From positions 89,424-153,423 of the forward strand of contig NZ_JAHBGB010000044.1 of assembly GCF_018390555.1 (NCBI RefSeq): a DNA stretch of 64,000 bases, read 5' to 3'. Every line of letters begins with the position of its first letter. Position 1 is the first letter of the stretch. This document shows positions 2,479-40,541 of this stretch, piece by piece. The position numbers and the translations under genes were made by a program. The stretch comes from Ancylobacter oerskovii. Its GTDB lineage: Bacteria; Pseudomonadota; Alphaproteobacteria; Rhizobiales; Xanthobacteraceae. The notes below the pieces were generated by a model. The model had not been told where the DNA came from, searched no databases, and saw nothing but the letters and a program-made list of their open reading frames with translations.

Positions 2479-2504
2479 TTAATCTTGGTTAATGGACGGT
2501 TAAC
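2479..2504. promoter_or_regulatory. CtrA-like TTAA-N7-TTAAC box in the minC upstream region
   Basis: Three TTAA half-sites lie at 2479, 2489 and 2500; the last two form TTAA-N7-TTAAC, the consensus recognised by the alphaproteobacterial cell-cycle regulator CtrA. The distance to the minC GTG is 34-60 bp. The left part is chromosomal and the right part phage DNA, because the attachment core runs through it. CtrA binding is inferred from the motif. Confidence 0.6.
2481..2493. other. attL core of prophage 1
   Basis: AATCTTGGTTAAT here recurs exactly at 40464-40476. The repeat brackets every phage gene in between, with an integrase next to this end. The flanking similarity extends through a TTAA-N7-TTAAC box at both ends (24 of 26 positions). 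Confidence 0.8.
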
Positions 2505-2576
2505 GTCTCCGGCGGCGGCCGCTGGGCTGTGGATCGTTGGCATTGCTCGACTTGCGCAAAACCGGGCTGTCGAACG

Positions 2577-2611
2577 AAAAAAGAACGTGAGACGGCATGA
2601 GACCGTCTCAC
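2577..2611 (-). terminator. Terminator of the leftward phage transcript, insulating minC
   Basis: A perfect 9-bp stem, GTGAGACGG (2587-2595) with CCGTCTCAC (2603-2611), is followed on the minus strand by GTTC and six T residues (2577-2582). It would stop leftward phage transcription about 130 bp before the minC start. The same bases belong to a TGAGAC repeat cluster shared with the right prophage end, so they may also serve in recombination. Confidence 0.65.
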
Positions 2612-2627
2612 GTCTCACATGAGACGA

Positions 2628-2846
2628 TTATGTTCCCGTCCCGTTTTCATCGGCCATCTGCTCGATCTGAGCCGCCGCATTGTTGGCTGCCGCGACGCGC
2701 TCCGCGACCAGGCCAATGTGAATTGCGATCATCTCTCGCCAGCGGCTGGGGTCGCGGTGTTCGGTTTCCAGCAGGTAGGCGCTGCATTCGAGAATGAGCT
2801 TGGCTTCTCCAAGCTCGCGCTGCAGCTTGATGATGTAATCCTCCAT
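2628..2846 (-). CDS. Small phage protein of unknown function
   Basis: 72 aa, largely helical and charged with a heptad-like pattern (KLQRELGEAKLILE), so a short coiled coil is likely. It is the leftmost phage gene and its stop is followed directly by the leftward terminator. No family recognised. Confidence 0.55.
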   Translation of the reverse strand: MEDYIIKLQRELGEAKLILECSAYLLETEHRDPSRWREMIAIHIGLVAERVAAANNAAAQIEQMADENGTGT

Positions 2847-2981
2847 CGGGTATCCCTCTTCTGTGTCCAGTTGAGTGGAAAGCCGACCACAACCGAATTC
2901 CCGGTGGGCGTGCGATCGCCGCGCGCTCGCCGGTATTGAGGTGTATGGTTAACGTAGGGTTGTGGCATTGGTTGCATACCA

Positions 2982-3482
2982 ATGAGGGGTAGAAGTTGGG
3001 CGCGTGGCTTGAGTTCCTCCGGCGCTTCGATCTTGCCGACATGGGAGGGTGGTGTGTGGAGATTGGTCGCTGGCATTATGCTCGGATTGGTGATCGCCGG
3101 GGTATGGTCGCGCTGGGCTCCTGCTGATGATCCTTTGGCGGGATGGAGTTGCCGCGAAAACTGCCGGCCTCATCTCGCGGGCTTCTACTGGGCGGAGCAG
3201 CGCGAAACAGTTGATCCCAACGAGTGCCTAGCGGATCTATCGCCGCCGTTTCGCATGGGGTGCCTGCAGTACGTTAGTCAGGCCTCGCTGGGCGTGACTT
3301 CTCGCGCCAGGCGCTTCCATGGTCAGCAGTGCACCGCCGATTGTGCCGGTCACAAGGCCGGATATGCATGGGCTGCCGAAACGCGGACGACGAACTGTCG
3401 AGGCGAGGCTGGCACGAATTCCCAATCCTTCATCGAAGGTTGCGAGGCGTATGCCAAGGAAGCCCTGGGCGCTTATCCCTAG
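2982..3482 (+). CDS. Membrane-anchored Cys-rich two-repeat protein, probable lysogenic cargo
   Basis: 166 aa. One hydrophobic segment (VAGIMLGLVIAGVW, about residues 29-43) is followed by an exported-type region with two copies of a ~45-residue motif. Each copy has the pattern C-x3-C-x(2-3)-H-x-AG-x-x-WA, a later Cys, and GC-x-x-Y near the end (about residues 56-100 and 114-160). It lies between int and attL on the opposite strand to all its neighbours, the usual place for a gene expressed from the prophage. It overlaps the convergent integrase stop by 4 bp. Function unknown. Confidence 0.6.
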   Translation: MRGRSWARGLSSSGASILPTWEGGVWRLVAGIMLGLVIAGVWSRWAPADDPLAGWSCRENCRPHLAGFYWAEQRETVDPNECLADLSPPFRMGCLQYVSQASLGVTSRARRFHGQQCTADCAGHKAGYAWAAETRTTNCRGEAGTNSQSFIEGCEAYAKEALGAYP

Positions 3483-4810
3483 AGCCCGCCCTTTGCCTCG
3501 AGCCACGCGGCCGCCTTGTCGACCGCGGTCGCGGCCATCTCCGGGTGCCGGCCGAGGTAGTGCTGCAGGATCTGCGTCGCGCTCGTCTGGCTGTGACCCG
3601 TCAATGACATGATCTCGGGGATGGTGGCGCCGGCCAGGCCGAGCCAGGTGACGGCGGTGTCGCGCAGATCCTGGTCGCGGAAATCTTCCAGCGACGGGCA
3701 GGGCGCAACCTTCCACGCCTCACCATCTTGGATGCCGGCGACAGCCGCGGCGCGGACCTCGCGAAAGGCATCGCGGTAGAGCTTGGAGCCGGCGTTGCCG
3801 GCGAAGGGGCGCCCGCGCTGCTCGTCAATGATGAGCTCGGGATGCTGGATGGTGCTGGCGGCGCGGCGCTGGCGGGCGCCCTTGAGGCGTTCGACCAGTT
3901 GCGGGGAGGCCGGCACCAGGACGACGGCGCCAGTCTTCTTCTGGAGGAAACGCAATCGCCCGTCGAGATCGCGGCCGTCGATCAGCAGCAGGCGATCGCT
4001 CTGCCGCTGGCCGGTGAGAAGGCCCATGACGATGGCGTCGCCGATCTCCGGCAGGCCGAGCGCGTCGGCGGCGGCGATGAGGGTGCGCATCTCCTCGACA
4101 GACCCGACTCGAAGGCGGGCGGAGGGCTTCTCGATACCCAGCTTCGACATGGGGGAGGGGCCGACCTTGCCCTTGGCGGCGCCCCACGTCCACGCCGCCG
4201 AGAGGGCGGCCATGGCGCCCCACGACATGGCGACGCCGCGGTCTTCGCAGAGGCGTTCATAAATGCCGCGGGCGGCGCGGGCGGTGAGCTCTGTCGTCGG
4301 CGCGGCCCATATGCGGCCTTCGTCGAAAATCTCTACGACCCGGGTCATGTGCCGATAGAAAACCTTCGTCGAGGCGGCCAGCGGCTTGATCCGGCGTTTG
4401 CCCTTGATGATCTCCTCGGATCCCCATTTCGGGTTCTTGGTCGGATCCTGCCATTCCTGCATCAGCTGGCCGATGGTGTAGACGTCCGGCCGCCTGAGCG
4501 GCGGGATCCGCCGGCGCGCACCGCGGGCGGCGGCGACGTCCTTCCGGCGCTCCGTCACCTCGGCGCTGCGTCGCTCCGACCAGGCCGCGGCCTCCTCGAG
4601 GCTGTACCAGCTGCCGTCCGGCCGCTTGAGATCCTCGCCCTTGAAGCCAAGGGCGCGGTGGGCGGGCGTGGCGACATAGCGGGGCTTGCCGTCACGCCAG
4701 ACGACGAAGGGGATGTTGACGACGATCTTTGCCACCGGAACCTCGCGAGGGGCGGACACGCGATGCTGCGATGATGGGCGATAGGCGCGGGCGGTGGCAA
4801 GGTGGGTCAT
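3479..4810 (-). CDS. int: Tyrosine recombinase, prophage 1 integrase
   Basis: 443-aa phage-type site-specific recombinase expected to act on the attL/attR cores bounding this element. Catalytic landmarks: Arg269 (LTGQRQSD), Arg383 (QDLRDTA), His405 (LTGHS) and the Tyr418 nucleophile (QHYLG). The His of the usual HxxR box is replaced (QDLR). The N-terminal ~100 residues resemble an arm-binding domain. The start overlaps the stop of a small membrane-protein gene (ATGA), placing it at the end of the leftward early operon. Confidence 0.9.
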   Translation of the reverse strand: MTHLATARAYRPSSQHRVSAPREVPVAKIVVNIPFVVWRDGKPRYVATPAHRALGFKGEDLKRPDGSWYSLEEAAAWSERRSAEVTERRKDVAAARGARRRIPPLRRPDVYTIGQLMQEWQDPTKNPKWGSEEIIKGKRRIKPLAASTKVFYRHMTRVVEIFDEGRIWAAPTTELTARAARGIYERLCEDRGVAMSWGAMAALSAAWTWGAAKGKVGPSPMSKLGIEKPSARLRVGSVEEMRTLIAAADALGLPEIGDAIVMGLLTGQRQSDRLLLIDGRDLDGRLRFLQKKTGAVVLVPASPQLVERLKGARQRRAASTIQHPELIIDEQRGRPFAGNAGSKLYRDAFREVRAAAVAGIQDGEAWKVAPCPSLEDFRDQDLRDTAVTWLGLAGATIPEIMSLTGHSQTSATQILQHYLGRHPEMAATAVDKAAAWLEAKGGL

Positions 4811-4965
4811 TGGACAACTCCCGATAGCATCAGCACCAGGGCGGCGACGAGGCCGAAGCCGAGGCAGGCGAAGAGGCGGCGGAATTCGCCATAGATCTCC
4901 TGCCAGAGAGTGGGGCGAGGCGCGGGAAACCCGCGTCTCTCTTCGATGGAGAGCGGTTCAGCCAC
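4807..4965 (-). CDS. 52-aa single-span membrane protein
   Basis: A GTG start at 4965 gives a 52-aa protein with a polar N-terminal half and a C-terminal hydrophobic span (LGFGLVAALVLMLSGVV). It overlaps the upstream gene by 8 bp and the integrase start by 4 bp, which supports it as translated. Role unknown. Confidence 0.55.
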   Translation of the reverse strand: MAEPLSIEERRGFPAPRPTLWQEIYGEFRRLFACLGFGLVAALVLMLSGVVQ

Positions 4966-5212
4966 GGCGCCGCCCTTTCTCGAGGTTTGCCAGAAACTCG
5001 CACCCGGCGGTGGTGGCGATGACGTGAAGCGACGGGTTGTTGCGCTCCGTCAGCAGGCCATCGATGACCAGGCGGTGGATCGTCTGGTGGTTGAAGGTGG
5101 CCGTGCCCTGGCCTTTCCACTGGCCGGTCGGCTTGCGGAAGATCTTCTTCCGCTTGGCGGCCATCAGCGCTTCCTTCTGGGTCGCGCTGTAATCGTCGGG
5201 GCGCCGCGGCAT
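4958..5212 (-). CDS. Small basic phage protein, winged-helix-like
   Basis: 84 aa starting at the ATG at 5212, one base after the upstream stop. The N-terminal half is Lys/Arg-rich; the middle (NHQTIHRLVIDGLLTER) looks like the recognition-helix and wing region of a small winged-helix domain. A DNA-binding role in the leftward operon is inferred. Confidence 0.55.
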   Translation of the reverse strand: MPRRPDDYSATQKEALMAAKRKKIFRKPTGQWKGQGTATFNHQTIHRLVIDGLLTERNNPSLHVIATTAGCEFLANLEKGRRRG

Positions 5213-5213
5213 G

Positions 5214-5639
5214 TCAGCGGCCCTCCGCCTTGAGAGTGACGGTGAGGTTCGCCAGCATGCGGCCCTGTTCGGCGAGGAGCTCCCGCGCGGGGCGCGGAAG
5301 GCCGAGCCAAAGCTTCGCGAGCTCGCCGAAGTGGTGATCGGCGGCGATCGTGGCGATGACGTCGGCGGTGGTGGCCGCGCGCGTGCCGATGACATCCTGG
5401 AAAAACCATTCCACCGGCTTGTCGGTGGCGGCCGCCCAGCGGATGAGCTTCTCCGGGCCCATGCGGTTTTTGCCCTTCTCACATTTCTGCACCTGCTGGA
5501 AGGTGACGCCGAGAAGGGCAGCCATCTGCTGCTGGGAGATGCCGGCGAAAAGGCGGGCGGCGCGGGCGCGCTCGCCGATCCGGCGGTTGATGTCGTCGTC
5601 GGCCATCAGCAGCTGGGGGAGCTTGACGTGCGCGTTCAT
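5214..5639 (-). CDS. XRE-family helix-turn-helix regulator
   Basis: 141 aa with a classic Cro/C1 HTH at about residues 20-75: RARAARLFAGISQQQMAALL, then GVTFQQVQKCEKGKNRM. The C-terminal half is helical and may dimerise. The ATG overlaps the upstream stop by 4 bp. It is a second HTH regulator apart from the repressor at 6300; it may control the integrase segment. Confidence 0.75.
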   Translation of the reverse strand: MNAHVKLPQLLMADDDINRRIGERARAARLFAGISQQQMAALLGVTFQQVQKCEKGKNRMGPEKLIRWAAATDKPVEWFFQDVIGTRAATTADVIATIAADHHFGELAKLWLGLPRPARELLAEQGRMLANLTVTLKAEGR

Positions 5640-5941
5640 GCCGCCATCCTCCGCTTGTCGAGCTCGCGGTAAGCTGCTGCGACCCAGTTCTTCAGGAGGC
5701 CAGCGGCACCATGGGTGCAACTGGTGCGCAAGCCGCCCATTGAGAGCGACATGGCGCCCAGCGGCTTGCCCATTTTCGCGCGGCCCTCCCGGACGAGCTC
5801 GTCCAGGACGTCGGCGGCGGCGATATGATAGGCGCGCATGCTCTGGTGGTTGCCGGGCTCGATTGCCGGCAGCGCGCCCAGCTTTTGCTTCACCATGATG
5901 ACGAGATCGAGCAGTTCGTTGTCGGTGACGCGCTTGCTCAT
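5636..5941 (-). CDS. Phage protein of unknown function
   Basis: 101 aa, translationally coupled to both neighbours by ATGA overlaps. Mostly helical (NELLDLVIMVKQKL; AADVLDELVREGRAKMGKPL). No catalytic motif or known family recognised. Confidence 0.5.
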   Translation of the reverse strand: MSKRVTDNELLDLVIMVKQKLGALPAIEPGNHQSMRAYHIAAADVLDELVREGRAKMGKPLGAMSLSMGGLRTSCTHGAAGLLKNWVAAAYRELDKRRMAA

Positions 5942-6207
5942 GCCGCGCTCCCATAGTGCTGTTCGAGCGTGGGAACGATCGAGGCCGCGGTGACGGCCTG
6001 GCCGGCCGGCGGATTGGTCACGCCGTCGATCCAGGCGATGACGGCCGCGCGCGACCAGAGGCCATTGAACCCGGGCAGCTTGGGCGGGAAGCCATATTCG
6101 GCAACCAGCCGCGGGAGCTTGCTGGTGAGGTGATCGGGCGTGACGTTCAGCCAGAGCGCGAGCTCTTCACGGCCGATCGTCGGCGGGGATAAAGCCGGAA
6201 TTCCCAT
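5938..6207 (-). CDS. Excisionase/AlpA-like small DNA-binding protein
   Basis: 89 aa from the ATG at 6207; an in-frame TTG at 6273 would add 22 residues. The segment REELALWLNVTPDHLTSKLPRL followed by PGFNGLWSRAAVIAWIDG has the layout of the MerR/excisionase winged helix, with the terminal W-x-x-x-V-I-A-WI typical of AlpA-type proteins. It is the first gene of the leftward operon, behind two operator palindromes, which suits an Xis or early-regulator role (inferred). Confidence 0.6.
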   Translation of the reverse strand: MGIPALSPPTIGREELALWLNVTPDHLTSKLPRLVAEYGFPPKLPGFNGLWSRAAVIAWIDGVTNPPAGQAVTAASIVPTLEQHYGSAA

Positions 6208-6245
6208 GACATTGACCCTCAGCGCAGTGATTTGCGCCGAGAGAT

Positions 6246-6298
6246 TGAGCCATTTCGGCTCATGTGGTGTCAAGAATTAATGAGCCAATTTGGCTCAT
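6246..6298. promoter_or_regulatory. Two repressor-type operators upstream of the leftward operon
   Basis: TGAGCCATTTCGGCTCA (6246-6262) and the perfect palindrome ATGAGCCAATTTGGCTCAT (6280-6298) lie between the repressor stop and the first leftward gene. They match the operator at 6692-6710, so one protein probably binds all three. Confidence 0.8.
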
Positions 6299-6299
6299 A

Positions 6300-6623
6300 T
6301 TATCTGTAGCTGTCGGCCAAGGCCTTGACGGTGCGGGTGATATGGGCGCGCGCGGAAGCGTCCAGACCGGCGACTAGGCCGTCCAGTGACGGGGTTTTCG
6401 GGTCCCGGAAGAGGTCTCCCGGCGAAATCTCAAGGAGGTCGGCCATGCGAGCAATCATCGGCGGGCCCGGCTCTCGCTCGCCTCTTTCGTATTTTCCGAG
6501 GCTCGTATGGTGCATTCCGAGCTGCTCGGCCAATTGCTCTTGGGTGAGCTTCTTCGCAATGCGCCATTCACGCAGGAAGAAGATCTTGGCGGGGAGAGCA
6601 GGGGCGGCAGTTGTGGCGGACAT
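6300..6623 (-). CDS. CI-like prophage repressor
   Basis: 107 aa from the ATG at 6623. The XRE HTH (about residues 14-68: LREWRIAKKLTQEQLAEQL, then GMHHTSLGKYERGERE) is followed by a short helical tail. There is no LexA/CI-type serine-lysine autoprotease domain, so SOS induction by self-cleavage is not evident. The gene is divergent from the Cro-like gene at 6719 with an operator between them, and two more matching operators lie just past its stop. It is the best candidate for the immunity repressor. Confidence 0.8.
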   Translation of the reverse strand: MSATTAAPALPAKIFFLREWRIAKKLTQEQLAEQLGMHHTSLGKYERGEREPGPPMIARMADLLEISPGDLFRDPKTPSLDGLVAGLDASARAHITRTVKALADSYR

Positions 6624-7416: not shown

Positions 7417-7580
7417 TGGGCTCGTTCGAACCCCTTGCCCTGCTGCTCGCTGCCCTGGGCGTGGCCTTCCTGCTGCTCGCCGCGGTCGTGAATGAGCTCG
7501 CTCGCCGCCAGCGTCATCGCGATCGCGGTTTCCGTGTCCGCCGGGTGCCCTGGGGAGGATTGCCGCATGCGCGCCATTGA
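7416..7580 (+). CDS. 54-aa single-span membrane protein
   Basis: The ATG at 7416 overlaps the previous stop (TGATG). The protein begins with a hydrophobic span (PLALLLAALGVAFLLLAAVV, residues 6-25) followed by an Arg/His-rich cytoplasmic-type tail. It overlaps the ParB-like gene start by 14 bp. Function unknown. Confidence 0.5.
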   Translation: MGSFEPLALLLAALGVAFLLLAAVVNELARRQRHRDRGFRVRRVPWGGLPHARH

Positions 7581-8427
7581 GACCGAACCCTATGTCAAGG
7601 CTTTCTGGGCGGAGTTCGCCGGCGCCGATCGCCCGCTCGGCGCGGCGCCCATGCTGCAGTGGGTGCCGATCGAGCATCTGCGCGTGGACCCGTCCTATCA
7701 GCGCGACATCACCGCCGAAGGGCGGCGCTCGCTGTTTGCGATCGCCCGCAATTTCGATTGGGCGAAGTTCGCTCCGCTCGTCGTCGCGCCGATCGAGGGC
7801 GGTCTCTATGCCGTGATCGACGGCCAGCACCGCGCCACGGCGGCGGCGCTGCGAAAGGTCGAGAGCGTGCCCTGTGAGGTGGTGATCGCCGACCAGGCCA
7901 AGCAGGCCGCCGCCTTCGCCGCCATCAACGGCCAGGTGACGAAGCTGTCTTCCGTGGCGATCTACCACGCCCGCGTGGCGGCCGGCGATCCCGAAGCGAA
8001 GATCTGCGACGAGGTGTGCCGATGCGCCGAGGTGAAGGTGCTGCGCTATCCGGTCCAAGCGACGCTGATGAAGCGCGGGGAGACGATCGCGCCGAACGTC
8101 ATCCTGGCGGCGATTGCCCGCCACGGCCGCGATACCGTCACCACGGCGCTGGCGAGCGTGACCCAGACCTCCGAGGGCAACCCGGGCATGCTCGGCAAGC
8201 CGGTCATCGAGGCGCTCTGCACCGTGCTCGGCGCGGCCAAGGAATGGCGCGAAGCGGGCGGAGCGCTGCTCGACGCCTTCGACGATTTCGATTTCAAGCA
8301 CGAGCTTACCGAGGCGCGCGTCGAACACCATAGGGGGGGGCAACCCCTGAACGGTGTGCTCTCCGCGCGCATCACCGCCTATCTGCAGAAGCGGCTGCCG
8401 CTGGCCGCCGCCACGGCGGCGGAGTGA
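7567..8427 (+). CDS. ParB/sulfiredoxin-like nuclease-domain protein
   Basis: 286 aa from the ATG at 7567. The N-terminal half carries the ParB/Srx signature: a VPIEHLRVDPSYQR start, then PLVVAPIEGGLYAVIDGQHR (about residues 60-85), i.e. the DGQHR substrate-binding loop. The C-terminal half is helical, with no recognisable HTH. Phage homologues are widespread; roles in partition, gene regulation or nucleotide chemistry are possible. It is the first sizeable gene of the rightward operon. Confidence 0.7.
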   Translation: MRAIETEPYVKAFWAEFAGADRPLGAAPMLQWVPIEHLRVDPSYQRDITAEGRRSLFAIARNFDWAKFAPLVVAPIEGGLYAVIDGQHRATAAALRKVESVPCEVVIADQAKQAAAFAAINGQVTKLSSVAIYHARVAAGDPEAKICDEVCRCAEVKVLRYPVQATLMKRGETIAPNVILAAIARHGRDTVTTALASVTQTSEGNPGMLGKPVIEALCTVLGAAKEWREAGGALLDAFDDFDFKHELTEARVEHHRGGQPLNGVLSARITAYLQKRLPLAAATAAE

Positions 8428-14006: not shown

Positions 14007-15872
14007 ATGGCAGAGCGGAAGTCGAGCGCCGGCGTTGTCGCCGGCGTGGTGGGCGGTGTTGTCGATCGCGTGCGGGCTCGTGTCGAGCGCCGCCAGGCGA
14101 TCCCCGACCCGCCCATCGGTGCGGATCGGGACGGCATTCCGCCGGGCCAGTGGCGCGCGCGCGGGCTCGAGGATGATCTCGGCCTGCCGCCGGGCTGCCC
14201 GGTGCATCCGCTCGGCGTCGACGGACAGACCTTCCATTTCATCGACGATATCGGCCAGCTGTTCTCCGTCCCCGAGGGGCGGCAGTTCGGCCAGGACGTC
14301 ATCCAGCGGCTGTTCGGCTCGCGGCCGAACTATCTCTACTGGGCGTGGCCGAAGATCTCGCCGCCGAAAAAGGAGGGCGAGAGTTTCAGCGTCACCAGCT
14401 GGCGCGCCGAGCTCGTGCGTCAGGATCTCTTTCAGGCCTGCAAGCTCAAGGGGCCGTGGAATTCCGTCGAGCGGATCCGCGGCCGCGGCGCATGGACCAC
14501 GAAGGATGGCCGCCTGGTGCTGCACTGTGGCGATGCCCTGTATATGGGGGTCGAGCGGATCGACACCGGCGAGCATGGCGAATTCTTCTATCCCCGCCGG
14601 CCGTCGATCGCGCATCCCTTCGCGCGACCGGTTGATGACGACGCCTCTCCCGGCCTCAAGCTCGTCGAGATCCTGCGCACCTGGTCGTGGGAGCGGCCGG
14701 ACGTCGATCCGCTGCTCGTCGTCGGCTGGATCGTCGTGGCGATGATCGGCGGCGCCCTCGAATGGCGGCCGAGCATCTTCCTGGTCGGCGACGCTGGCAC
14801 CGGCAAATCCCACCTGCAGCGGCTGATCAAGGCCGTCCTGGGCGGCATGCTCGTCCAGGCGACGGACACCACGCCGGCCGGCATCTATCAGCGGATTGGC
14901 ACCGATGCCTTGCCCGTCGCGGTCGACGAGCTCGAGGCGGGTGCCGACAACAAGCGCGTCATCGGCGTGGTGAACCTCGCCCGCCTCTCGGCGTCCGGCG
15001 GGCTGATGCTGCGCGGCGGCCAGGACAATACCGGCACCGAATTTCAGGCGCGCTCGCCCTTCCTGTTCTCCGCGATCGTCGCGCCGCCGCTGCCGCCGCA
15101 GGATCTTTCCCGGCTCGGCGTGCTGACGCTCAAGCGGCTGGATCCCGAGAAGATCGCCTCGCCGCCGGTGCTCGAGGCGGCCGACACTATCGGCCCGCGG
15201 ATCCTGCGGCGCCTGGTCGACCGCTGGGACCAGTGGCCGCAACTCCTCCATGCCTACAAGGCGGCGCTGTTCAAGGGGAAGCACGACACGCGAGGGCAGG
15301 ATACCTACGGCACGCTCCTCGCTGCCGCGCATCTGCTGCTCGGCGACGACGCCATGGCCGAGGCCGGGGTGAACGCGATCGAGAAGTGGGCGGATCTGCT
15401 CGGCGTCGATGCCCTGCCGGATCACGTCCAGCGCGAGGACAACTGGCGCAAATGCATCATGCACATCCTCACCTCGAGAGTGCCGGCCTGGCGCCACGGC
15501 GCGCGCCAGACGATCGGGCAGCTAGTCGAGGACGTGCTCGAGACGAGCCGTCTCAAGATGGACGGCGGTGTGAACATGGAGGAGGCGGTGCGCCTGATGG
15601 CGCAGGCCGGCCTCGGCTTGCACCGGGATCCCGACTTGTCCCACGGCCTGATCCTCTCGGTGCCGAACAATTCGCCGCTGCTGGCCGAGCTCTTCGACGG
15701 CTCGGTGTGGGCCGGCGCCGCCGGCGTCGGCGGCTGGGCGGGCTCGCTGCGGCAGGGGCCGCCCGAAATCGTCGTGACCGACAAGAAGAAGAACAATCGG
15801 AAGATCGGCGGCGTGCAACAGCGCTGCACGCTGGTCAAGCTGGATGATTTTTTCAAGTTGATGGAGGGATGA
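14007..15872 (+). CDS. Phage replication ATPase/helicase-like protein
   Basis: 621 aa. A Walker A GDAGTGKSHLQ lies at about residues 262-272, followed by AVDELEAGADNK (candidate Walker B, about 310) and RSPFLFSAIVAPPLPPQDLSR, a sensor-like region as in primase-linked helicases and DUF927-type ATPases. The ~240-residue N-terminus has no recognised motif. With the upstream Toprim protein it probably forms the phage primase-helicase. It overlaps the next gene by 4 bp. Confidence 0.7.
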   Translation: MAERKSSAGVVAGVVGGVVDRVRARVERRQAIPDPPIGADRDGIPPGQWRARGLEDDLGLPPGCPVHPLGVDGQTFHFIDDIGQLFSVPEGRQFGQDVIQRLFGSRPNYLYWAWPKISPPKKEGESFSVTSWRAELVRQDLFQACKLKGPWNSVERIRGRGAWTTKDGRLVLHCGDALYMGVERIDTGEHGEFFYPRRPSIAHPFARPVDDDASPGLKLVEILRTWSWERPDVDPLLVVGWIVVAMIGGALEWRPSIFLVGDAGTGKSHLQRLIKAVLGGMLVQATDTTPAGIYQRIGTDALPVAVDELEAGADNKRVIGVVNLARLSASGGLMLRGGQDNTGTEFQARSPFLFSAIVAPPLPPQDLSRLGVLTLKRLDPEKIASPPVLEAADTIGPRILRRLVDRWDQWPQLLHAYKAALFKGKHDTRGQDTYGTLLAAAHLLLGDDAMAEAGVNAIEKWADLLGVDALPDHVQREDNWRKCIMHILTSRVPAWRHGARQTIGQLVEDVLETSRLKMDGGVNMEEAVRLMAQAGLGLHRDPDLSHGLILSVPNNSPLLAELFDGSVWAGAAGVGGWAGSLRQGPPEIVVTDKKKNNRKIGGVQQRCTLVKLDDFFKLMEG

Positions 15873-16750: not shown

Positions 16751-17344
16751 ATGGCGGACGGCACCGACGACGAAAAAATTCCCGGCGCCGGGCAGGCCGC
16801 TTTGCCGGGCATCGAGCCGCTGCGGCTTCGGACGCCCGGGCGACCGGCCGGCGCCGAGGGGCGGTCAAAGCGCCAGCTGCGGGAATACCTCGCTGGCCTC
16901 GGCTACCGCGATCCGGCCGTCGTCCTGGCGGAGACGATGTCGATGGCGGATGGCGACCTGCAAGCCCTGTTAAGCCAGCGGGTTCGCGAGCCGGATGGCT
17001 CGGTGCGGACCGAGCGGATTACCCTGGCGGAGGCGCGCGCGATCCGGCTGCGGGCGGCGGCGGAGCTCATGCCCTTCCTGCACGGCAAGATGCCGAACGT
17101 CGAGGTGCAGCCCGATGAGCAGCTGCCGGTGCTGATCATCGAGGCCGGCCGCAACCAGCTGGATATCGACCGCGGGCGCATCGATGGCGGGCGCCGCGAC
17201 GGTGCGCTCTCGGCCGGCCTGCCGCTCTTGGAAAATCAAGGGGTTAGCGTGGGCGAGGCGGAAGCGTCTCATGACGCGACCGTCTCACGACCCGGTGAAA
17301 GTGAGGCGGATCAAGGCTTCGCGGGGGATGAGGACGATGATTGA
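16751..17344 (+). CDS. Probable terminase small subunit
   Basis: 197 aa from the ATG at 16751. Residues ~40-75 (SKRQLREYLAGLGYRDPAVVLAETMSMADGD) and the following helical part, ending near HGKMPNVEVQ, match the small terminase-like proteins found before terL in podovirus-type phages. The tail is acidic (GFAGDEDDD). Position just upstream of TerL supports the call; the DNA-recognition role is inferred from the family. Confidence 0.6.
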   Translation: MADGTDDEKIPGAGQAALPGIEPLRLRTPGRPAGAEGRSKRQLREYLAGLGYRDPAVVLAETMSMADGDLQALLSQRVREPDGSVRTERITLAEARAIRLRAAAELMPFLHGKMPNVEVQPDEQLPVLIIEAGRNQLDIDRGRIDGGRRDGALSAGLPLLENQGVSVGEAEASHDATVSRPGESEADQGFAGDEDDD

Positions 17345-17651
17345 AAATCAATGCACGTGTCCGGTGTCGGCCGTCCCCCTCGCTCGGATATCGGACCCGA
17401 TCGGCCGAGGCGCCGCCGCCGGCCGGCGCGCCGCCGGGCGCGCCGCACCCCCCCGGGGGGTCGAGCCGGAGGCCTTCCCCGAGCCGCCCCCGCCCCCCCA
17501 CTCAGGGGGGACGGTGCGCACACCGATCCGGTTTTCAGCGGCGGTGCCGGGTTTCGAGGCCGCGAACCAATTGGAGCGGAATGGGGTGGGGGTGCGGGTC
17601 GCCCGCGCGGTGCGTCAGGCCGAGGCCGGGGAGGGCGCGCGAAATGGCTGA
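17337..17651 (+). CDS. Overlapping small Pro/Arg-rich protein (uncertain)
   Basis: 104 aa, from an ATG overlapping the TerS stop to a TGA 8 bp inside TerL. The start (MIENQCTCPVSAVPLARISD) and end (AANQLERNGVGVRVARAVRQ) look protein-like. The middle is Pro/Gly-rich and includes a CCCCCCGGGGGG run. It fills the otherwise empty 300 bp between terS and terL. Confidence 0.4.
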   Translation: MIENQCTCPVSAVPLARISDPIGRGAAAGRRAAGRAAPPRGVEPEAFPEPPPPPHSGGTVRTPIRFSAAVPGFEAANQLERNGVGVRVARAVRQAEAGEGARNG

Positions 17652-19224
17652 GCTGTCCGACGACGATGTGCGCTCACTGGTGGCGGACCTAGAGCTCGAT
17701 GAAGGCTTCGATATTTTCAGCTATCGACCGCCGGGTCCAGTGTCCCAGGCATTTCTCAACAACCAACGTGACCTCACCCAATTCCTCATGGGGCCGGTGG
17801 GCGGGGGAAAAACCACGACGTGCGTGTTCAAGCGGATCCTGGCGGCAACCCTCATGCCGGTCGACAAGAAGGGCGTCCGGCGCTCGCGCTGGGTCGTGGT
17901 GCGCACGTCGTTCCGCGACGCCGATCGGACAGTGCTGAAAAGCTGGCAGCAGTGGTTCCCGAAGAATTATCCCGGCTCGAGCTGGCAGGGCGGCAATGAC
18001 CGACCGGTCACGCATGTGCTGCGCTGGCGGCTGCTCGACGGCACCACGGCAGAAGCCGAGACGATATTCATCGGCCTGGGCGAGCATCGGATCACCGAGG
18101 TGCTGCGCGGCTTCGAAATATCCGGCGCCTGGCTGAACGAGGCGGACACTCTCGGCGAGGATGCCTTGTCCGCCGTCGAGCAGCGCGTCGGGCGCTATCC
18201 CGCCCGCGTCGATCTCGCTGACGCCTCGCAGCCGCGCCATCGGCAGGTTATTGGCGATCTGAATGCGCCCGACGAAGACAACTGGGTGTATTCGACCTTC
18301 ATGGAGAACGGCAAGCCGAACCGGATCCTGTATGCGCAGCCGTCCGGCCGGCATGCTGACGCTGAAAATCTCGGCAATCTTGAACCGGGCTACTATGAAA
18401 ACATGATCGAGACGCAAGAGGACTGGTTTGTGCGGCGCTTCGTCGACAATCAGTTCGGTTATTCGCGCGAGGGAAAGCCGGTGTTTCCGGCGTTCAATCG
18501 CGCCAGTCACGTTGCGGCGCGCCAGCTCGACCCGGATCCCAATCTCGACGTGCTGATCGGTCTCGACGCCGGATTGCACCCGGCGGCCGTCATAGGGCAG
18601 CCAACGCCGCGCGGGCAGATCCGCGTGATCGATGAGCTGTATCTCGGCCATGGCTATGGTGCCGATCGCTTCGGCGAGGCGCTGCTCGACCTGTTCGACC
18701 GCCGGCGCTACCCGGTGCGCTCCGGCCGAAACTATCGCGCCTGGGCGGATCCGGCGTCGCAATATGGCGCCGATCGGGAAGGTGGTGAGCTTGCCTGGTT
18801 TGAGGCGATCAGCGCGGTGCTCGGCATCGCGGTGCAAATCCCGATCTCGAATGAGCTGTCGCTGCGCATCGGCGCCGTCTCGCAGGAGCTCCGGCACATG
18901 CTCGACGATGGATCCCCTCGGTTCCTGGTGTCGCCTCACTGCAAGATCACGATCCGTGCGATGTCGTCGGCCTACCGCTACAAAAAGCGGATCGACGGGC
19001 AGTTCGACGCCACGCCGGAGAAGAACGCCGCGTCCCACCCCATGGATGGGCTGCAATACCTGGTGCTCGGCTATCGCGGCCGTGCCGGCGTGGTGCGTGA
19101 GGCGGGCGCCGGCGGCCGCCAGCAGCCGGATAGCCGCATAGGGCACAATAGCGGGTCGCGTCTGCCGGCGGGGTCGTTCGACCCGCACCGCATCGGCATC
19201 GGCAGCGGGAGAAGCCGGTGGTGA
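17644..19224 (+). CDS. terL: Terminase large subunit
   Basis: 526-aa packaging motor. Walker A GPVGGGKTT lies at residues 50-58 and the Walker B/catalytic GAWLNEAD at about 161-168. A C-terminal RNase H-like nuclease begins at IGLDAG (about 306) with ADPAS further on, and MSSAYRYKK near residue 440. ATPase and nuclease domains are both complete. The ATG at 17644 is chosen because the Met is followed at once by an acidic family-like N-terminus. Confidence 0.9.
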   Translation: MAELSDDDVRSLVADLELDEGFDIFSYRPPGPVSQAFLNNQRDLTQFLMGPVGGGKTTTCVFKRILAATLMPVDKKGVRRSRWVVVRTSFRDADRTVLKSWQQWFPKNYPGSSWQGGNDRPVTHVLRWRLLDGTTAEAETIFIGLGEHRITEVLRGFEISGAWLNEADTLGEDALSAVEQRVGRYPARVDLADASQPRHRQVIGDLNAPDEDNWVYSTFMENGKPNRILYAQPSGRHADAENLGNLEPGYYENMIETQEDWFVRRFVDNQFGYSREGKPVFPAFNRASHVAARQLDPDPNLDVLIGLDAGLHPAAVIGQPTPRGQIRVIDELYLGHGYGADRFGEALLDLFDRRRYPVRSGRNYRAWADPASQYGADREGGELAWFEAISAVLGIAVQIPISNELSLRIGAVSQELRHMLDDGSPRFLVSPHCKITIRAMSSAYRYKKRIDGQFDATPEKNAASHPMDGLQYLVLGYRGRAGVVREAGAGGRQQPDSRIGHNSGSRLPAGSFDPHRIGIGSGRSRW

Positions 19225-19624: not shown

Positions 19625-19867
19625 ATGGGCAGTCTTTTCGGTGGTGGGGATGACGGCGCCAGCAACCGGGCGGCGGAGTTGTCACGTCAGCAGGCGGCGG
19701 CGGCGCAGCGGCGGCAGCTCGCCGAGCTCGCGCGCTCGCAGGCCGAGGTCGATCAGGCTAAATCGAGCGGGAGCGGCCAGCGTGGGCGGCGCCTCCTCAC
19801 CTTCCTGCAGCCGCCGGCGCTCGGTGACAGCGGCACCGGCTCGAGCACGTTCGGCGGGGCTTCCTGA
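19625..19867 (+). CDS. Small phage protein upstream of portal
   Basis: 80 aa with a strong ribosome site (AGGAGGT, about 6 bp before the ATG). Glycine-rich start, then a Gln/Ala-rich helix (RQQAAAAQRRQLAELARSQA) and a flexible end. It overlaps the portal start by one base. Its size and place fit a minor structural protein or portal partner. Confidence 0.5.
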   Translation: MGSLFGGGDDGASNRAAELSRQQAAAAQRRQLAELARSQAEVDQAKSSGSGQRGRRLLTFLQPPALGDSGTGSSTFGGAS

Positions 19868-21495
19868 TGGCGGAGGAGGCCGCCGGCGGGCAGTCCAGTG
19901 AAATCAAGGCGCTGAAAGCGCGGCGCGGCAACGCCCAGACGATCCGCGACCAGTTTCAGCCCTTGCTGGATGACGCCTTCAAATACGCCATCCCCTACCG
20001 GAAGGATACGCGCGACGATGGCCCGGGGGCCGAGCGCGTCAGCGAAGTCTACGACCACACGGCCATCGTCTCGGCGTTCCGCTTCGGCGGGAAGCTGCAA
20101 TCGGACCTGGTGCCGCCGGGAGATACCTTCTTCAAGCTCGAGCCCGGACCGCTCGTGACGGATGAGAAGTTGCGCGACGACCTCGCGCGCGAGCTCGACG
20201 GGGTCCGCAACGTCATCGCCGCGGCGCTGCTGGATGGCGAATGGGACAATGCTTTCGCCGAAATGGCGCTCGACCTGTCGGCCGGTACCGGGGCGATGCT
20301 GATCCTCGAGGGGGAGGGCGAGAAGCTCGCCCGCTTCATGACGGCGCCGATCTCGGAAATCCTCCTCGAGGCTGGCGGCTATGGCGACATCAGCGCCATA
20401 TTCTGGAAGCGGAAATGGTCTGTGCGGTCGATCCGCGAGACCTGGCCGCGGGCGAAGTTCGGCACCTGGCTGTCGGAAACCTTCGAAAAGAAGCCGGAAA
20501 CCGAGGTCGAGCTCTTCCAGGATACCGTGTGGGATCCGAAAAAGAAGCGCTGGGTGCATACCGTCTGGTGCGAGCAGAACGACACGCCCCTTAGCGTCAA
20601 GCCCTATCGCACCTGTCCGTGGCTCACGCCGCGCTATTTCAAGGTGTCGGGCGAGGTGTACGGGCGTGGACCCGTCATGCTCGCCATGCCGACGATCCGC
20701 ACTCTCAACACCGCCCAGCGCTATACGCTGCAGGCGGCCGCCATCGCCATGATCGGCATCTACACGGCGATCGACGACGGCGTATTCAACCCCGACCACT
20801 CGCCGATCGCGCCGGGCATGTTCTGGAAGGTCGCCCGCAATGGCGGCACGCTCGGCCCTTCGGTGCAGAAATTCCCCGAGCCGCGCATCGACCTGTCCAA
20901 CCTGGTGCTGAACGACATGAAGCTCGGCGTCCAGGCGGCGATGATGGACCAGTCGCTGCCGCCGGACGGGGCGGCGGTGCGCTCCGCCACCGAGATCCTC
21001 GAGCGGGTGAAGCGGCTCGCCAATGACCATTTCGGCGCCTTCGGCCGCCTGGTCGCGGAGATCATCGTGCCGCTGGTGAAGCGGCTGATCGAGATCGCCT
21101 ACGCCCGGCGCCTCATCCAGTACGAAACCCCGATCGACCAGCTGCTGGTGCGCGTCAGCGTCTCGTCGCCGCTGGCGATCGCCCGTGAAACCAGCCGGGC
21201 GCAGAAGATCATCCAGTGGGTCGAGATGACGAAAATGCTCCTGCAGGAGCGGTCGAAGCTGGTGGTGAAAGACGAAGAGGCGCTCCTCGAGGTCGGCCGC
21301 GTCATGGACGTGCCGCAACAGTTCATCGTCACGCCCGAGGAGCGTGAGCGGATGCGCCAGGCCGACGCCCAGGCGGCGGCCATCGCCAATGCCGCCCAGC
21401 TCGGCGGCCAGATCGCTCCTCTCGTCCAGGCCGGCGCCGCACTGGCCGGGCCTGCCGATGCCGCCACCGCCCCGCCGCCGGAGACCGCCGTATGA
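19867..21495 (+). CDS. Portal (head-to-tail connector) protein, T7 gp8-like
   Basis: 542 aa. The start (RRGNAQTIRDQFQPLLDDAF) and DHTAIVSAFRFGGKLQSDLVPPG, EWDNAFAEMALDLSAGTGAM, YGRGPVMLAMPTIRTLNT and RSATEILERVKRLANDHFGAFGRL blocks are the landmarks of the T7-type connector family. It forms the dodecameric ring through which DNA is packaged and ejected. Normal family length. Confidence 0.88.
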   Translation: MAEEAAGGQSSEIKALKARRGNAQTIRDQFQPLLDDAFKYAIPYRKDTRDDGPGAERVSEVYDHTAIVSAFRFGGKLQSDLVPPGDTFFKLEPGPLVTDEKLRDDLARELDGVRNVIAAALLDGEWDNAFAEMALDLSAGTGAMLILEGEGEKLARFMTAPISEILLEAGGYGDISAIFWKRKWSVRSIRETWPRAKFGTWLSETFEKKPETEVELFQDTVWDPKKKRWVHTVWCEQNDTPLSVKPYRTCPWLTPRYFKVSGEVYGRGPVMLAMPTIRTLNTAQRYTLQAAAIAMIGIYTAIDDGVFNPDHSPIAPGMFWKVARNGGTLGPSVQKFPEPRIDLSNLVLNDMKLGVQAAMMDQSLPPDGAAVRSATEILERVKRLANDHFGAFGRLVAEIIVPLVKRLIEIAYARRLIQYETPIDQLLVRVSVSSPLAIARETSRAQKIIQWVEMTKMLLQERSKLVVKDEEALLEVGRVMDVPQQFIVTPEERERMRQADAQAAAIANAAQLGGQIAPLVQAGAALAGPADAATAPPPETAV

Positions 21496-22819: not shown

Positions 22820-23695
22820 ATGGCGACGACGGAAATGCCGAACTGGTTTGTGACCCAGTTCAACAAGCGGGCGCAGCACATCTACCAGGCCAAGGGCAAC
22901 CGCCTGAAGGGCACGGTCGCCGGTGCCGACCGTATCGAGGCCAACGAAGCCAAGTGGCGCCTGGTCGGTAAGGGCGAAGCGAAGGAATTCCAGCGCGGCC
23001 AGGCCGCGACCCCGGCGAACACCGGCCGCGGCATCGTCGGCGCTCCGCTGAAGACCTTCCAGTTCTTCGACGAGGTGCACGATTACGACAGCGATCGCGC
23101 GGCCGACCCGAATGGCGCCCAGGAGAAGGAGAAAATCTTCGAGCAGGGCGGCATGGCGCTCGGCCGCTCGGCCGACCGCGAGATCATGAACGTGCTGAAC
23201 ACCGGCGCGGCCACGGCCGGCAACAACTTCATCGATCTCGGCACCACGGCGTTCGACGCGGCCGCCGCGATGACCATGTGCCAGCGCCTGCAGGCGGCTG
23301 ACGTGCCGTGGGAAGGGCAGGTGTATTGCCCGCTGCCGTCGCTGCTCTGGAACCAGCTTCTGAGCGCGAAGGTGGTCAACTCGTCGGATCACGTCGGGCA
23401 GGACCTGCCCTTCGTGAAGAGCACCGACACCCGCTTCTGGAACGGCGTCAACTGGTTCCTGCTGTCGGACAGCTTCTTCCCGGTGCCGGCGGCCAACAAG
23501 TTCGACGTCTTCCTGTACCACAAGGAAGCGGTCGGCCATGCGCCCCACACCGAGCTGAAGACCTATTGGACCTGGCTGAACAAGTTCACCTGCTGGGAGG
23601 TGAACATGCTGTCCAAGGGGGCGAACGTCCTGCTGCAGCAGGAGGGCATCGTGCGCCTGCGCGCGCCGTCCAATACCGCCATCACCCTCAACTGA
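22820..23695 (+). CDS. Major capsid protein
   Basis: 291 aa. An N-terminal arm rich in Lys/Gln (FVTQFNKRAQHIYQAKGNRL) is followed by KEFQRGQAATPANTGRG, QFFDEVHDYD and a C-terminal half with FVKSTDTRFWNGVNWFLLSD. This fits podovirus major capsid proteins of ~290 aa (HK97 fold by family). It has the strongest late-gene context: scaffold before, a terminator-like hairpin after. Confidence 0.8.
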   Translation: MATTEMPNWFVTQFNKRAQHIYQAKGNRLKGTVAGADRIEANEAKWRLVGKGEAKEFQRGQAATPANTGRGIVGAPLKTFQFFDEVHDYDSDRAADPNGAQEKEKIFEQGGMALGRSADREIMNVLNTGAATAGNNFIDLGTTAFDAAAAMTMCQRLQAADVPWEGQVYCPLPSLLWNQLLSAKVVNSSDHVGQDLPFVKSTDTRFWNGVNWFLLSDSFFPVPAANKFDVFLYHKEAVGHAPHTELKTYWTWLNKFTCWEVNMLSKGANVLLQQEGIVRLRAPSNTAITLN

Positions 23696-38073: not shown

Positions 38074-38082
38074 GGATCGACC

Positions 38083-38844
38083 ATGTTTTCCCTCTCGAAC
38101 CTTGGGGCTCCGCTCCCCGCCTGGCCGGGCCCTCGCCGCTTCCGCTCTGCACTCGGCCGTGCGATCGGCGCCATCCCCGGCTGGATTGCGGTGTTCGACG
38201 CCCAGTACAGTGAGACCTCCAAGAGCATCAACAGGGTTGTCGGGCGCAGCTCGCCGGCCACCATCACGACCGGCCTGACTTTCGCGAACGGCAAGCCGGC
38301 CATTGAAGTCTCGCCCGGTAGCAACCTCGGCATCCCGCTTAATCTGGCGGCCTATGTCGACGAGGTGGTCGACCGGACGAATTTCACGTTCTTCGCCGTG
38401 GTCCAGCGCACGGCCGCGCTGGCCCAGCCGGCCATCCTATGGCGCCCCTTCGAGGATGCCACGGCCGGTCAGAAGGGCTTTGCCCCGACGATCAACACCG
38501 CCAACAATTTCGCGGTCTACAACCGCTCGGCCGGGGCCACGACCCTGCTGCTGGAAGGCGCCATCGTCTCGCTCAACGTTCCGACGCTGCTCCTGATGAG
38601 CTACTCGGCTGAGCGGGGCCTGACCATCCGCCAAAACGCGGTCCAGCGCGGGAACCTCCCGGCAGAGACGGCTCCCACGATCCCGGCGAATATCGTCCAG
38701 ATGGGCAACATGCTGCAGGGCAACACCGCCGGCAATATTCGGTACGGCCTCGTCGGTTTGCTAAAGGGCGATCTGACGCGCACCTCTCAGGCCGCGCGCC
38801 TCGCGCAGCTTGAGAGCGGACTTTTGTCTATGTACTCGGCGTGA
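38083..38844 (+). CDS. Phage tail-associated protein, LamG-like
   Basis: 253 aa, beta-rich with regular hydrophobic strands (TNFTFFAVVQRTAALAQPAI; NNFAVYNRSAGATTLLLEGA). This suggests a concanavalin/LamG-type jelly roll. It follows the tail-fibre gene by 9 bp, so it may be a second host-recognition protein or fibre partner. Confidence 0.5.
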   Translation: MFSLSNLGAPLPAWPGPRRFRSALGRAIGAIPGWIAVFDAQYSETSKSINRVVGRSSPATITTGLTFANGKPAIEVSPGSNLGIPLNLAAYVDEVVDRTNFTFFAVVQRTAALAQPAILWRPFEDATAGQKGFAPTINTANNFAVYNRSAGATTLLLEGAIVSLNVPTLLLMSYSAERGLTIRQNAVQRGNLPAETAPTIPANIVQMGNMLQGNTAGNIRYGLVGLLKGDLTRTSQAARLAQLESGLLSMYSA

Positions 38845-38851
38845 GGGTACA

Positions 38852-39520
38852 ATGGCGCGACGACTGCTGCCCGAAATCGTCGATCATGTGAAGCGCTTCG
38901 AGGGGTGCCGACTGACGGCCTACCCGGATCCCGGCTCGAAAAACGGCGAGCCGTGGACCATCGGCTATGGCCACACCTCCGACAAATTCATGGCCGTGCG
39001 CCGGGGAATGACGATCTCCCAGGCGCAGGCCGATGCCGCGCTCGAGCACGATCTCGGCGAGGCCGCCGATATCGTCGATAGGCTGGTGAAGGTGCCGCTG
39101 AACGACTGGCAGCGCGGCGCGCTGGCGAGCTTCGTGCTGAACATCGGCGAGGGGCAATTCAGCGGCTCAACCCTGCTGCGGAAGCTCAATGCGGGCAATT
39201 ACGACGCCGTGCCGGGCGAGCTCGCGCGGTGGAACAAAAATGACGGCAAGGTGATGAAGGGCCTGGTGAACCGTCGGGCCGCGGAGGCCGGCCTCTGGGT
39301 GCGCACCTCCTTCGTCGCCTCGAACACCGTGCCGGCGGCGCCGGGCAACCCGGTGCGCGAGCTGCTGACGCCGGAGCGCATCACCGCGGCCGGCGGCCTG
39401 CTGGGCGGTGCGGCCAGCCTCGCCAGCGGCAACGGGCCGGTGCAGATCGCCGTCGCCGTGTGCCTGGTCGCCGCGGCCGTCGTGATCGGCTTCCTGGTCG
39501 TGCGGAAGGCGACGCGATGA
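38852..39520 (+). CDS. Endolysin, GH24 lysozyme with C-terminal membrane anchor
   Basis: 222 aa. GH24 (T4-lysozyme-type) domain: KRFEGCRLTAYPD (catalytic Glu17), TIGYGHT (36-42), LNDWQRGALASFVLNIGEGQF and a late WVRTSF. Unusually, the protein ends with a hydrophobic span (VQIAVAVCLVAAAVVIGFLV, ~196-216) and RKATR. There is no N-terminal signal-anchor as in SAR endolysins. The ATG at 38852 is 7 bp after the upstream stop. Overlaps the spanin gene by 4 bp. Confidence 0.85.
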   Translation: MARRLLPEIVDHVKRFEGCRLTAYPDPGSKNGEPWTIGYGHTSDKFMAVRRGMTISQAQADAALEHDLGEAADIVDRLVKVPLNDWQRGALASFVLNIGEGQFSGSTLLRKLNAGNYDAVPGELARWNKNDGKVMKGLVNRRAAEAGLWVRTSFVASNTVPAAPGNPVRELLTPERITAAGGLLGGAASLASGNGPVQIAVAVCLVAAAVVIGFLVVRKATR

Positions 39521-39765
39521 CCTGGCTCTTCGCCCTCTTCGACAAGACGAAGCTCTACCTGCTGGCGGCCGTGGCGGCCGCCGGCACCGTGGCGGCCGCC
39601 TGGTGGCGTGCCCGCGAGGACGGGAAGAACGCGGTGCGCCTCGAGCAGTCGCAGGCGCGCGAGAAGCTGAGGGACGCCTATGACGAAATCGACCGCTCGC
39701 CTGGTGACGTTGATGGCGCTTACGATCGCCTTGGCCGGCTGTCAGACGGCAAAGGTCGTCGGTAG
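39517..39765 (+). CDS. Inner-membrane spanin subunit (Rz-like)
   Basis: 82 aa with one N-terminal span (KTKLYLLAAVAAAGTVAAAW) and a charged periplasmic coiled-coil stretch (RLEQSQAREKLRDAYDEIDR). The next gene, a lipoprotein in another frame, overlaps its last 86 bp. This overlapping pair next to an endolysin is the classic Rz/Rz1 layout for outer-membrane disruption. Confidence 0.75.
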   Translation: MTWLFALFDKTKLYLLAAVAAAGTVAAAWWRAREDGKNAVRLEQSQAREKLRDAYDEIDRSPGDVDGAYDRLGRLSDGKGRR

Positions 39766-39898
39766 CTGCCCGACGCTCTCCCCGCCGCCCAAAGCCGCTC
39801 TGGCCGCCCTACGGGCCGCGGACGATGGTTACGTCGATGCATGGGTGGTCGATCTCGACCGACACTACCGGAAACTCGACGCCTGCGCCGGGCGTTGA
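39680..39898 (+). CDS. Outer-membrane spanin lipoprotein (Rz1-like)
   Basis: 72 aa with a lipoprotein signal ending in the lipobox LAGC (Cys21), then a Pro-rich short mature part (CPTLSPPPKAAL). Starts in the +1 frame inside the Rz-like gene. The lipobox, Pro-rich region and nesting fit an o-spanin. Confidence 0.78.
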   Translation: MTKSTARLVTLMALTIALAGCQTAKVVGSCPTLSPPPKAALAALRAADDGYVDAWVVDLDRHYRKLDACAGR

Positions 39899-39928
39899 GC
39901 CACGTATCTGGCAGAGAGCCCCGCCGCG

Positions 39929-40213
39929 ATGAAGAACGAGCCGTCCGAAAGCGTCGTGATCTCGATGTCGCCCACCGAGCTCGGCGAGCTGATCGAGAAG
40001 TCGGTGCGGCGCGGGCTGGCCGATGCCGGGCTGTATCTCGAGGACAAGGAGGATCGCGAGGAAGCCCGAAAGGATTTCTGGTTCCTGCGCCGCTGGCGCC
40101 GGGCCATGGATGGCGCCGCGGCCAAGATTGGCTATTCGGTGCTGGGCATCTTCGTCGCCGGCATGGCGTTGGTGATCTGGGCCGGCTTCAAGGCGCATGT
40201 CCTCAAACAGTGA
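39929..40213 (+). CDS. Small C-terminal-anchored protein, holin candidate
   Basis: 94 aa. Polar, charged N-terminal two thirds (SPTELGELIEKSVRRGLADA; DKEDREEARKDFW) and one C-terminal span (IGYSVLGIFVAGMALVIWAG). Its place in the lysis cassette suggests a holin or antiholin of one-span type; no other holin is visible in the prophage. Confidence 0.55.
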   Translation: MKNEPSESVVISMSPTELGELIEKSVRRGLADAGLYLEDKEDREEARKDFWFLRRWRRAMDGAAAKIGYSVLGIFVAGMALVIWAGFKAHVLKQ

Positions 40214-40475
40214 ACGCCAGTGGCGCAAGCTCGATATCGCTGGCGCGGATCTCGTGACCTTCGACCGGCCGGCCCGCCGCTTGATCGTCACGCGCGGGCA
40301 TAATTCTGTGATCGGAACGCCGGAAGAGCTTGACGCGCTCGGTGTAATTTGCCGCGCCGCTGCTGCGCAGATCACGGGAGAACATGAGACAAATCCGGTG
40401 AAATGGGGTCGAAGTCTCATGTTCTCAGGTGTTAAGTCACTGATATCATTATTGTCTAAGTTAAATCTTGGTTAA
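40197..40475 (+). CDS. Last prophage gene; stop codon lies in the attR core
   Basis: 92 aa, overlapping the holin candidate by 17 bp. Mixed fold (DLVTFDRPARRLIVTRGHNSV, then GTPEELDALGVICRAAAAQI). Its last codons and TAA come from the attachment core, so the C-terminus changes little between prophage and excised circle. A 13-bp inverted repeat lies inside it (40378-40426). Function unknown. Confidence 0.5.
   Translation: MSSNSERQWRKLDIAGADLVTFDRPARRLIVTRGHNSVIGTPEELDALGVICRAAAAQITGEHETNPVKWGRSLMFSGVKSLISLLSKLNLG
40378..40426. repeat. 13-bp inverted repeat near attR, candidate integrase arm sites
   Basis: GAGAACATGAGAC (40378-40390) and its perfect inverse GTCTCATGTTCTC (40414-40426), 23 bp apart, ending 38 bp before the attR core. 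The motif GAACRTGAGAC also occurs at 2583-2593 near attL, with more TGAGAC/GTCTCA units to 2625. Confidence 0.55.
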
Positions 40476-40476
40476 T
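40464..40476. other. attR core of prophage 1
   Basis: AATCTTGGTTAAT, identical to 2481-2493. It is embedded in three TTAA half-sites at an 11-bp period (40461, 40472, 40483), i.e. two consecutive TTAA-N7-TTAA boxes; the second ends TTAAC. Confidence 0.8.
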
Positions 40477-40541
40477 AGCCGGTTAACATGGTTCCCGAGC
40501 GGGCTCGCGAGCGGTGCGGGCACCCCGGTTCCCGCGGTGGA

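Follow-up and report, generated by a model that had tools for sequence, protein, structure and literature searches.

A temperate Ancylobacter phage inserted in a conserved array of CtrA-type boxes upstream of minCDE

The window, a 64-kb stretch of an Ancylobacter oerskovii genome (G000), carries a 38-kb prophage that interrupts the gap between minCDE and the gene of an ABC exporter. The insertion is bounded by 13-bp direct repeats, the cores of the left and right attachment (att) sites attL and attR, and at both ends the repeats lie within arrays of TTAA boxes that resemble binding sites of the cell-cycle regulator CtrA. The element is a temperate phage with its own tyrosine integrase. The junctions and their host flanks are organized as follows.

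644–916, minus strand: minE (PF03776)
913–1725, minus strand: minD, a MinD/ParA-type ATPase (CbiA and ParA models, and operon position)
1735–2445, minus strand: minC (PF03775)
2478–2503, minus strand: three-box array at minC, TTAACC-GTCCA-TTAACC-AAGA-TTAAC; box 3 is host DNA, box 2 lies in the core, and box 1 (2498–2503) is probably phage DNA
2481–2493, no strand: attL core AATCTTGGTTAAT on the minC side, an exact repeat of 40464–40476
2494–40463, no strand: prophage, delimited by the att repeats and phage genes; A. gelatini holds a syntenic relative
40460–40486, minus strand: array at attR, TTAACC-GGCTA-TTAACC-AAGAT-TTAAC; host and core DNA make up boxes 1 and 2, and the phage supplies the third box with one extra spacing base
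40464–40476, no strand: attR core AATCTTGGTTAAT on the exporter side
40757–42571, plus strand: ABC exporter (PF00005 and PF00664), the right host flank, which adjoins minC in the related genome G062

The 13-mer is the top-ranked repeat between the bases just left of the integrase gene and the far side of the prophage, by a score that favours length and A+T. The repeats and the boxes around them had been placed correctly by a sequence-only reading of the window: TTAA-N7-TTAAC occurs at 2489–2504 and 40472–40487, and TTAA-N7-TTAA at 40461–40475. A minC-proximal TTAA at 2479–2482, overlooked in that reading, turns the left site into a three-box array. Strict TTAA-N7-TTAA is present three times in the 64 kb, each time at a prophage end, and never in 100 shuffles, whereas TTAA-N7-TTAAC with up to one mismatch has six matches in the window, all at the ends (expected 0.26).

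The core, which reads ATTAACCAAGATT toward minC, takes in box 2 together with the bases that separate it from box 3. Box 3 itself remains with minC, and the minC-side box 1 (TTAACC, N5 from box 2) lies outside the core on the phage side. The N7 pair formed by boxes 1 and 2 is broken beside the core, not within it, and attL and attR each keep a full TTAA-N7-TTAACC pair with no mismatches to the CtrA consensus. A crossover between boxes 2 and 3 would make the minC-side box 1 phage DNA at the right spacing, and the two prophage ends suggest that the phage attachment site (attP) carries three TTAA boxes. The sequence-only reading had proposed that the phage brings a replacement copy and so keeps the division operon regulated. 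The correctly spaced phage box agrees with the first part, and the preserved regulation is a plausible consequence.

The array upstream of minC is conserved. Of the 30 genomes searched in the genus, 22 have a minC match and eight have none, and TTAAC-N6-TTAAC-N5-TTAA precedes minC in all 22 loci, the window and the 21 others, at 33–37 bp ahead of the minC start; the window has the form TTAACC-N5-TTAACC-N4-TTAACC. One to three GANTC sites, the target of CcrM, lie within 80 bp upstream of minC in each of the 22 loci. Outside the genus, 20 of the 25 family loci read have TTAA-N7-TTAA in the 300 bp ahead of minC (among 119 genomes, 36 had a match; 30 loci were obtained, including the 25 from other genera). 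It is also present upstream of minC in all five Rhizobiaceae loci fetched from 349 plasmid records. One of the five, from Sinorhizobium meliloti RCAM1115, reads TTAACCATTTGTTAACC and contains TTAA-N7-TTAACC, the same form as Ancylobacter boxes 1 and 2. CtrA is reported to repress minCD directly in S. meliloti (PMC4433202), and the CtrA consensus TTAA-N7-TTAAC is reported from Hyphomonas (PMC7200025). The G000 genome encodes a CtrA homologue with about 85% identity to the Caulobacter sequence.

Sites of the CtrA type, with up to one mismatch, are present about twice per 100 kb (nine in 435,308 bases of the genus and five in 220,000 bases of family stretches, both counts including the att sites and minC boxes themselves). 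The chance landing of an att site on such a sequence is therefore unlikely, with two reservations: the recognition of the boxes was partly post hoc, and TTAA may be more frequent in intergenic DNA. Our preferred reading, to which we assign a probability of roughly 0.7, is that the bacterial attachment site (attB) of the temperate phage is the CtrA-type operator array of minCDE. The claim of a host operator as attB had been made by the sequence-only reading; the conserved array bears out its operator-like nature, and the binding of CtrA to it in Ancylobacter is putative.

A second phage, in A. gelatini A5.8 (G165), is syntenic with the window phage, which encodes the following proteins, along with tail proteins, between the two att repeats.

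3479–4810, minus strand: tyrosine integrase of 443 residues (PF00589, 31.1 bits against a cut-off of 27.1)
5214–5954, minus strand: repressor-like protein (PHROG 2328)
17341–19224, plus strand: terminase large subunit (PHROG 2)
19867–21495, plus strand: head-tail adaptor, portal-like (PHROG 332)
22820–23695, plus strand: major head protein (PHROG 3437)
38810–39520, plus strand: endolysin (PHROG 7)

The identities between the two phages are 66–68% for the integrase, 81% for a primase-like protein, 81% for the terminase, 74% for the head-tail adaptor, and 79% for the head protein. The A. gelatini phage has the 15-bp att sequence ATGGTTAACGGGTTT at both ends, and its integrase end adjoins a DUF2336 gene (PF10098), upstream of which lies the box TTAA-N7-CTAACC. 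The DUF2336 gene has a match in all 30 genomes of the genus and is preceded by TTAA-N7-NTAAC in every one of them (C at the variable position in 29, A in one). The box is uninterrupted in all 29 other genomes, and in 16 of them the joined host flanks of A. gelatini align across the site by 10 bp or more on each side. By these alignments, the DUF2336 locus appears to be a far better empty site than minC. The whole box pair is contained within the core and the host flank, and therefore no phage-supplied half is needed. The presence of a second phage in a CtrA-like box makes coincidence less likely. A. gelatini is itself one of the eight genomes with no minC match, and its phage uses another box. 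Between the integrase gene and the phage end, A. gelatini has an A-T-rich stretch with two open reading frames (L002, 7391–9240) that looks like cargo; the equivalent in the window spans only about 1 kb.

A phage in G050, a genome of the same family, with an integrase 36–42% identical, is a possible third case at a conserved CtrA-like box. Its 62-bp core is located 57 bp upstream of a LysM/M23 gene, which we take to be dipM-like, with a PCMT gene on the other flank. The core stops directly after TTAA-N7, and the host side continues with TTTAC; TTAA-N7-TTTAC is found in 13 of the 15 LysM/M23 loci with a placeable gene start (of 30 tried), that of G050 included. In the integrase tree the window and G165 sequences form one group and G050 and G188 form another elsewhere, each with a support of 100/100, and the deep branches are weak. 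Since G050 groups apart from the window and G165, the use of operator boxes may have arisen twice. A weak fourth candidate is G358, one phage end of which meets host homology near GGTTAGTTATTCGTCAAC (TTAG-N7-TCAAC; L242), upstream of a transglycosylase (SLT_2) gene; a relative, L243, is similar, and only one end is available. In G590 (L130 region), the left phage end lies near AAAGGAGGTGATCC, which we take to resemble the 3' end of 16S rRNA.

Most resolved relatives of the integrase use tRNA genes. Both ends were resolved for 14 att sites, and tRNA genes account for 11 of these (two Met, five Lys, three Arg, and one Thr), with exact cores of 18–50 bp, and one edge of each core is at the anticodon loop as judged by eye. 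The fraction is not a rate for the whole family, since 17 or more additional genomes carry integrase relatives that fall outside the 14. Stretches were fetched from seven of these (G590, G188, G545, G358, G457, G299, and G567), and seven were seen at the integrase locus only (G369, G450, G594, G044, G080, G128, and G179). In G567 and G299 a tRNA-Lys gene is near the integrase gene, and in G457 the distance is 2.7 kb; in G189, G026, and G092 a tRNA-Lys gene lies within the same 20-kb stretch as the integrase relative. By comparison, the three operator cores, read from host to phage, start with a spacer of 7–8 bases followed by TTAA: AATCTTGG-TTAA in the window, AAACCCG-TTAA, and CAAGGCT-TTAA.

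The tRNA habit gives rise to the strongest rival explanation: the integrase tracks its ancestral tRNA core, and the minC array resembles that core by accident, with no role for CtrA. The window core read from host to phage, TTAATCTTGG, does resemble the anticodon-arm cores of tRNA-Lys (TTAATCATGG) and tRNA-Met (ATAATCCTGG), and this string resemblance, together with the 11 tRNA genes among the 14 resolved sites, speaks for the explanation. No tRNA gene was found in the 64-kb window, so the core at minC is not in one. TAATC is shared by neither the core of the A. gelatini phage (GGTTAG|AAACCCG|TTAAC) nor the core edge of G050, yet both are positioned on conserved TTAA-N7 boxes, and box 1 at minC, which the phage supplies, falls beyond the core, where it is unneeded for recombination homology. 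We regard an accidental resemblance as possible but clearly less probable than the use of the operator array.

Less probable again, and in our view unlikely, is that the boxes are operators of another regulator and that the phage targets a conserved promoter element with a binder other than CtrA. The CtrA sites of this genus are putative, and the boxes at the DUF2336 and LysM/M23 genes are each one base off the CtrA consensus, which favours this explanation. In contrast, boxes 1 and 2 at minC are formed as in S. meliloti, where direct repression of minCD by CtrA is reported (PMC4433202); the host has a CtrA homologue, and the GANTC sites accompany the array in every minC locus of the genus.

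The position of the left junction was examined using G062, the only one of the 21 other minC loci of the genus with the exporter found beside minC. Three features near the phage ends enter into this comparison.

2588–2625, no strand: inverted TGAGAC/GTCTCA cluster near attL, which may provide arm sites for the integrase or sites for a regulator
2628–2846, minus strand: small phage gene of 72 residues, the C-terminal end of which is kept in G062; related DNA is present in the A. gelatini phage
40385–40419, no strand: TGAGAC/GTCTCA pair near attR

In G062, minC is 96% identical to that of the window and the exporter 88% over the part covered; the two genes are adjacent, and the genome has no integrase match. 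The homology to the window runs from minC to 2666 (82% over 242 bp) and resumes at 40533, and the 93 bp between this segment and the exporter flank match nothing fetched at E 0.01. The stretch 2494–2666 is, judging from three comparisons, phage DNA: the A. gelatini phage, which is at another locus, has the TGAGAC/GTCTCA cluster at its left end with 91% conservation over 44 bp; related clusters, in TGCGAC versions, are located at the ends of tRNA-targeting relatives; and G062 keeps the end of the phage gene at 2628–2846, as its frame 2 reads RIAKMADGNGAGT where the phage gene ends in QIEQMADENGTGT. The same three observations speak against a true left junction near 2666, with 2494–2666 as host DNA common to the window and G062 and the second copy of the array as chance or a phage-borne mimic, an explanation that the unbroken homology of G062 from minC to 2666 would favour and that we consider very improbable. 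G062 was rejected as a clean empty site because its minC flank is phage-derived. It is best read as the remnant of a deleted prophage at the same box, which apparently kept a left-end relic and may derive either from an independent insertion or from an ancestral one. In G201, a genome with no integrase match, a tRNA-Lys(TTT) gene has a TGAGAC-type stretch about 55 bp away (L079, 9968–10013), which is perhaps a phage-end scar.

Several observations weigh against the use of the CtrA-type array as attB. The comparison with relatives, by which the sequence-only reading proposed to find the joined attB, recovered the array in all other minC loci of the genus, but the joined site was not seen, since the minC–exporter gap of G062 holds the phage relic. 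The core is positioned on the N6 pair of boxes 2 and 3, which has two mismatches to the CtrA consensus, and a G+C-rich 14-mer, longer than the 13-mer, ranks below it in the repeat search. TTAA-N6/7-TTAA was not found upstream of minC in five of the 25 family loci, and the 3.6-kb ctrA locus yielded no CtrA-type box when one mismatch was allowed. At the DUF2336 site, 13 of the 29 relatives have no alignment across the site by the 10-bp criterion, with the farther flank too diverged or nothing aligned across, and no phage-supplied extra box was seen in the A. gelatini phage. DUF2336 and CtrA appear together in no paper of a partial literature search. The single-base departures of the DUF2336 and LysM/M23 boxes and the 11 tRNA genes among the 14 resolved sites belong here as well. 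Box scans of viral contigs pointed to three contigs, the fetched stretches of which have no integrase, minC, or DUF2336 match.

The best reading of the family as a whole is that it is tRNA-targeting and that some lineages moved to CtrA-type operators of the same arm-7-bp-arm geometry. The integrases would ancestrally cut in tRNA anticodon loops, where two short arms surround seven bases, and a full CtrA site, with two palindromic TTAA arms around seven bases, has the same plan as the anticodon stem-loop. The shared geometry could have allowed some lineages to jump from a tRNA gene to an operator. At minC, the phage would bring a correctly spaced replacement box and rebuild the array; phages that rebuild the operator would persist because the host cell-cycle gene remains regulated, in the way that tRNA phages rebuild the tRNA.

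An extension of the operator reading, which we hold to be doubtful, is that CtrA sits on attB, attP, attL, and attR through the cell cycle and gates integration and excision by stage. CtrA would then have two roles, as the landmark that the phage has evolved to recognise and as a factor or competitor in recombination. Comparable recombination factors in other phages are IHF or Fis.

That an integrating phage rebuilds its target is well established for tRNA genes. The window phage is similar to tRNA-gene prophages in that its integrase belongs to the same family as relatives at tRNA-Lys, Arg, Met, and Thr genes, in the rebuilding of a split target, and in the arm-7-arm geometry. It differs from them in that its target is a promoter operator array, its core is only 13 bp long, and a regulator box beyond the core is rebuilt. 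Phage Jorvik of Rhodobacter capsulatus, as described in PMC10589892, is likewise alphaproteobacterial and uses a conserved host motif as attB, integrating by host XerCD at a dif-like site; Jorvik infection is reported to need CtrA, and Jorvik has one putative CtrA site. Unlike Jorvik and other XerCD phages, the window phage has its own integrase, and its attB itself is a CtrA-type site. The CtrA–minCD system of S. meliloti (PMC4433202) shares the operator form upstream of minC, seen in strain RCAM1115, but involves no phage, whereas the CtrA site of Ancylobacter is putative. No description of a phage attB made of a CtrA box was found in a partial literature search, which covered mostly titles and the starts of abstracts.

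The usual explanation for an integration site invokes conservation of the sequence and tolerance of the insertion, and tRNA genes are the classic example. The cases described here are two related phages, and perhaps a third, at conserved regulator-like boxes that belong to different genes. One of these phages rebuilds the box, and together they suggest that related phages aim at a type of bacterial control sequence. If CtrA binds the boxes, phages repeatedly attach at the operator of a transcription factor, attP evolves to mimic that operator, and the state of the cell cycle could be coupled to lysogeny.

The integrase has no match among solved-structure chains by phmmer at E 0.01. A scan of viral contigs with the integrase identified four loci, one of them in G600; when the end pieces of the other three records were compared, the end repeats of G598 and G599 were only G+C-rich or unconvincing, and G601 had none. 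The scan with window positions 14007–15872 identified one distant viral contig. Within the prophage, a ParB-like protein (PHROG 1033) is encoded at 7492–8427 on the plus strand. A thiamine pyrophosphate (TPP) riboswitch is located at 57032–57164 of the window on the plus strand, with a score of 66.6 bits against a gathering score of 54.3.

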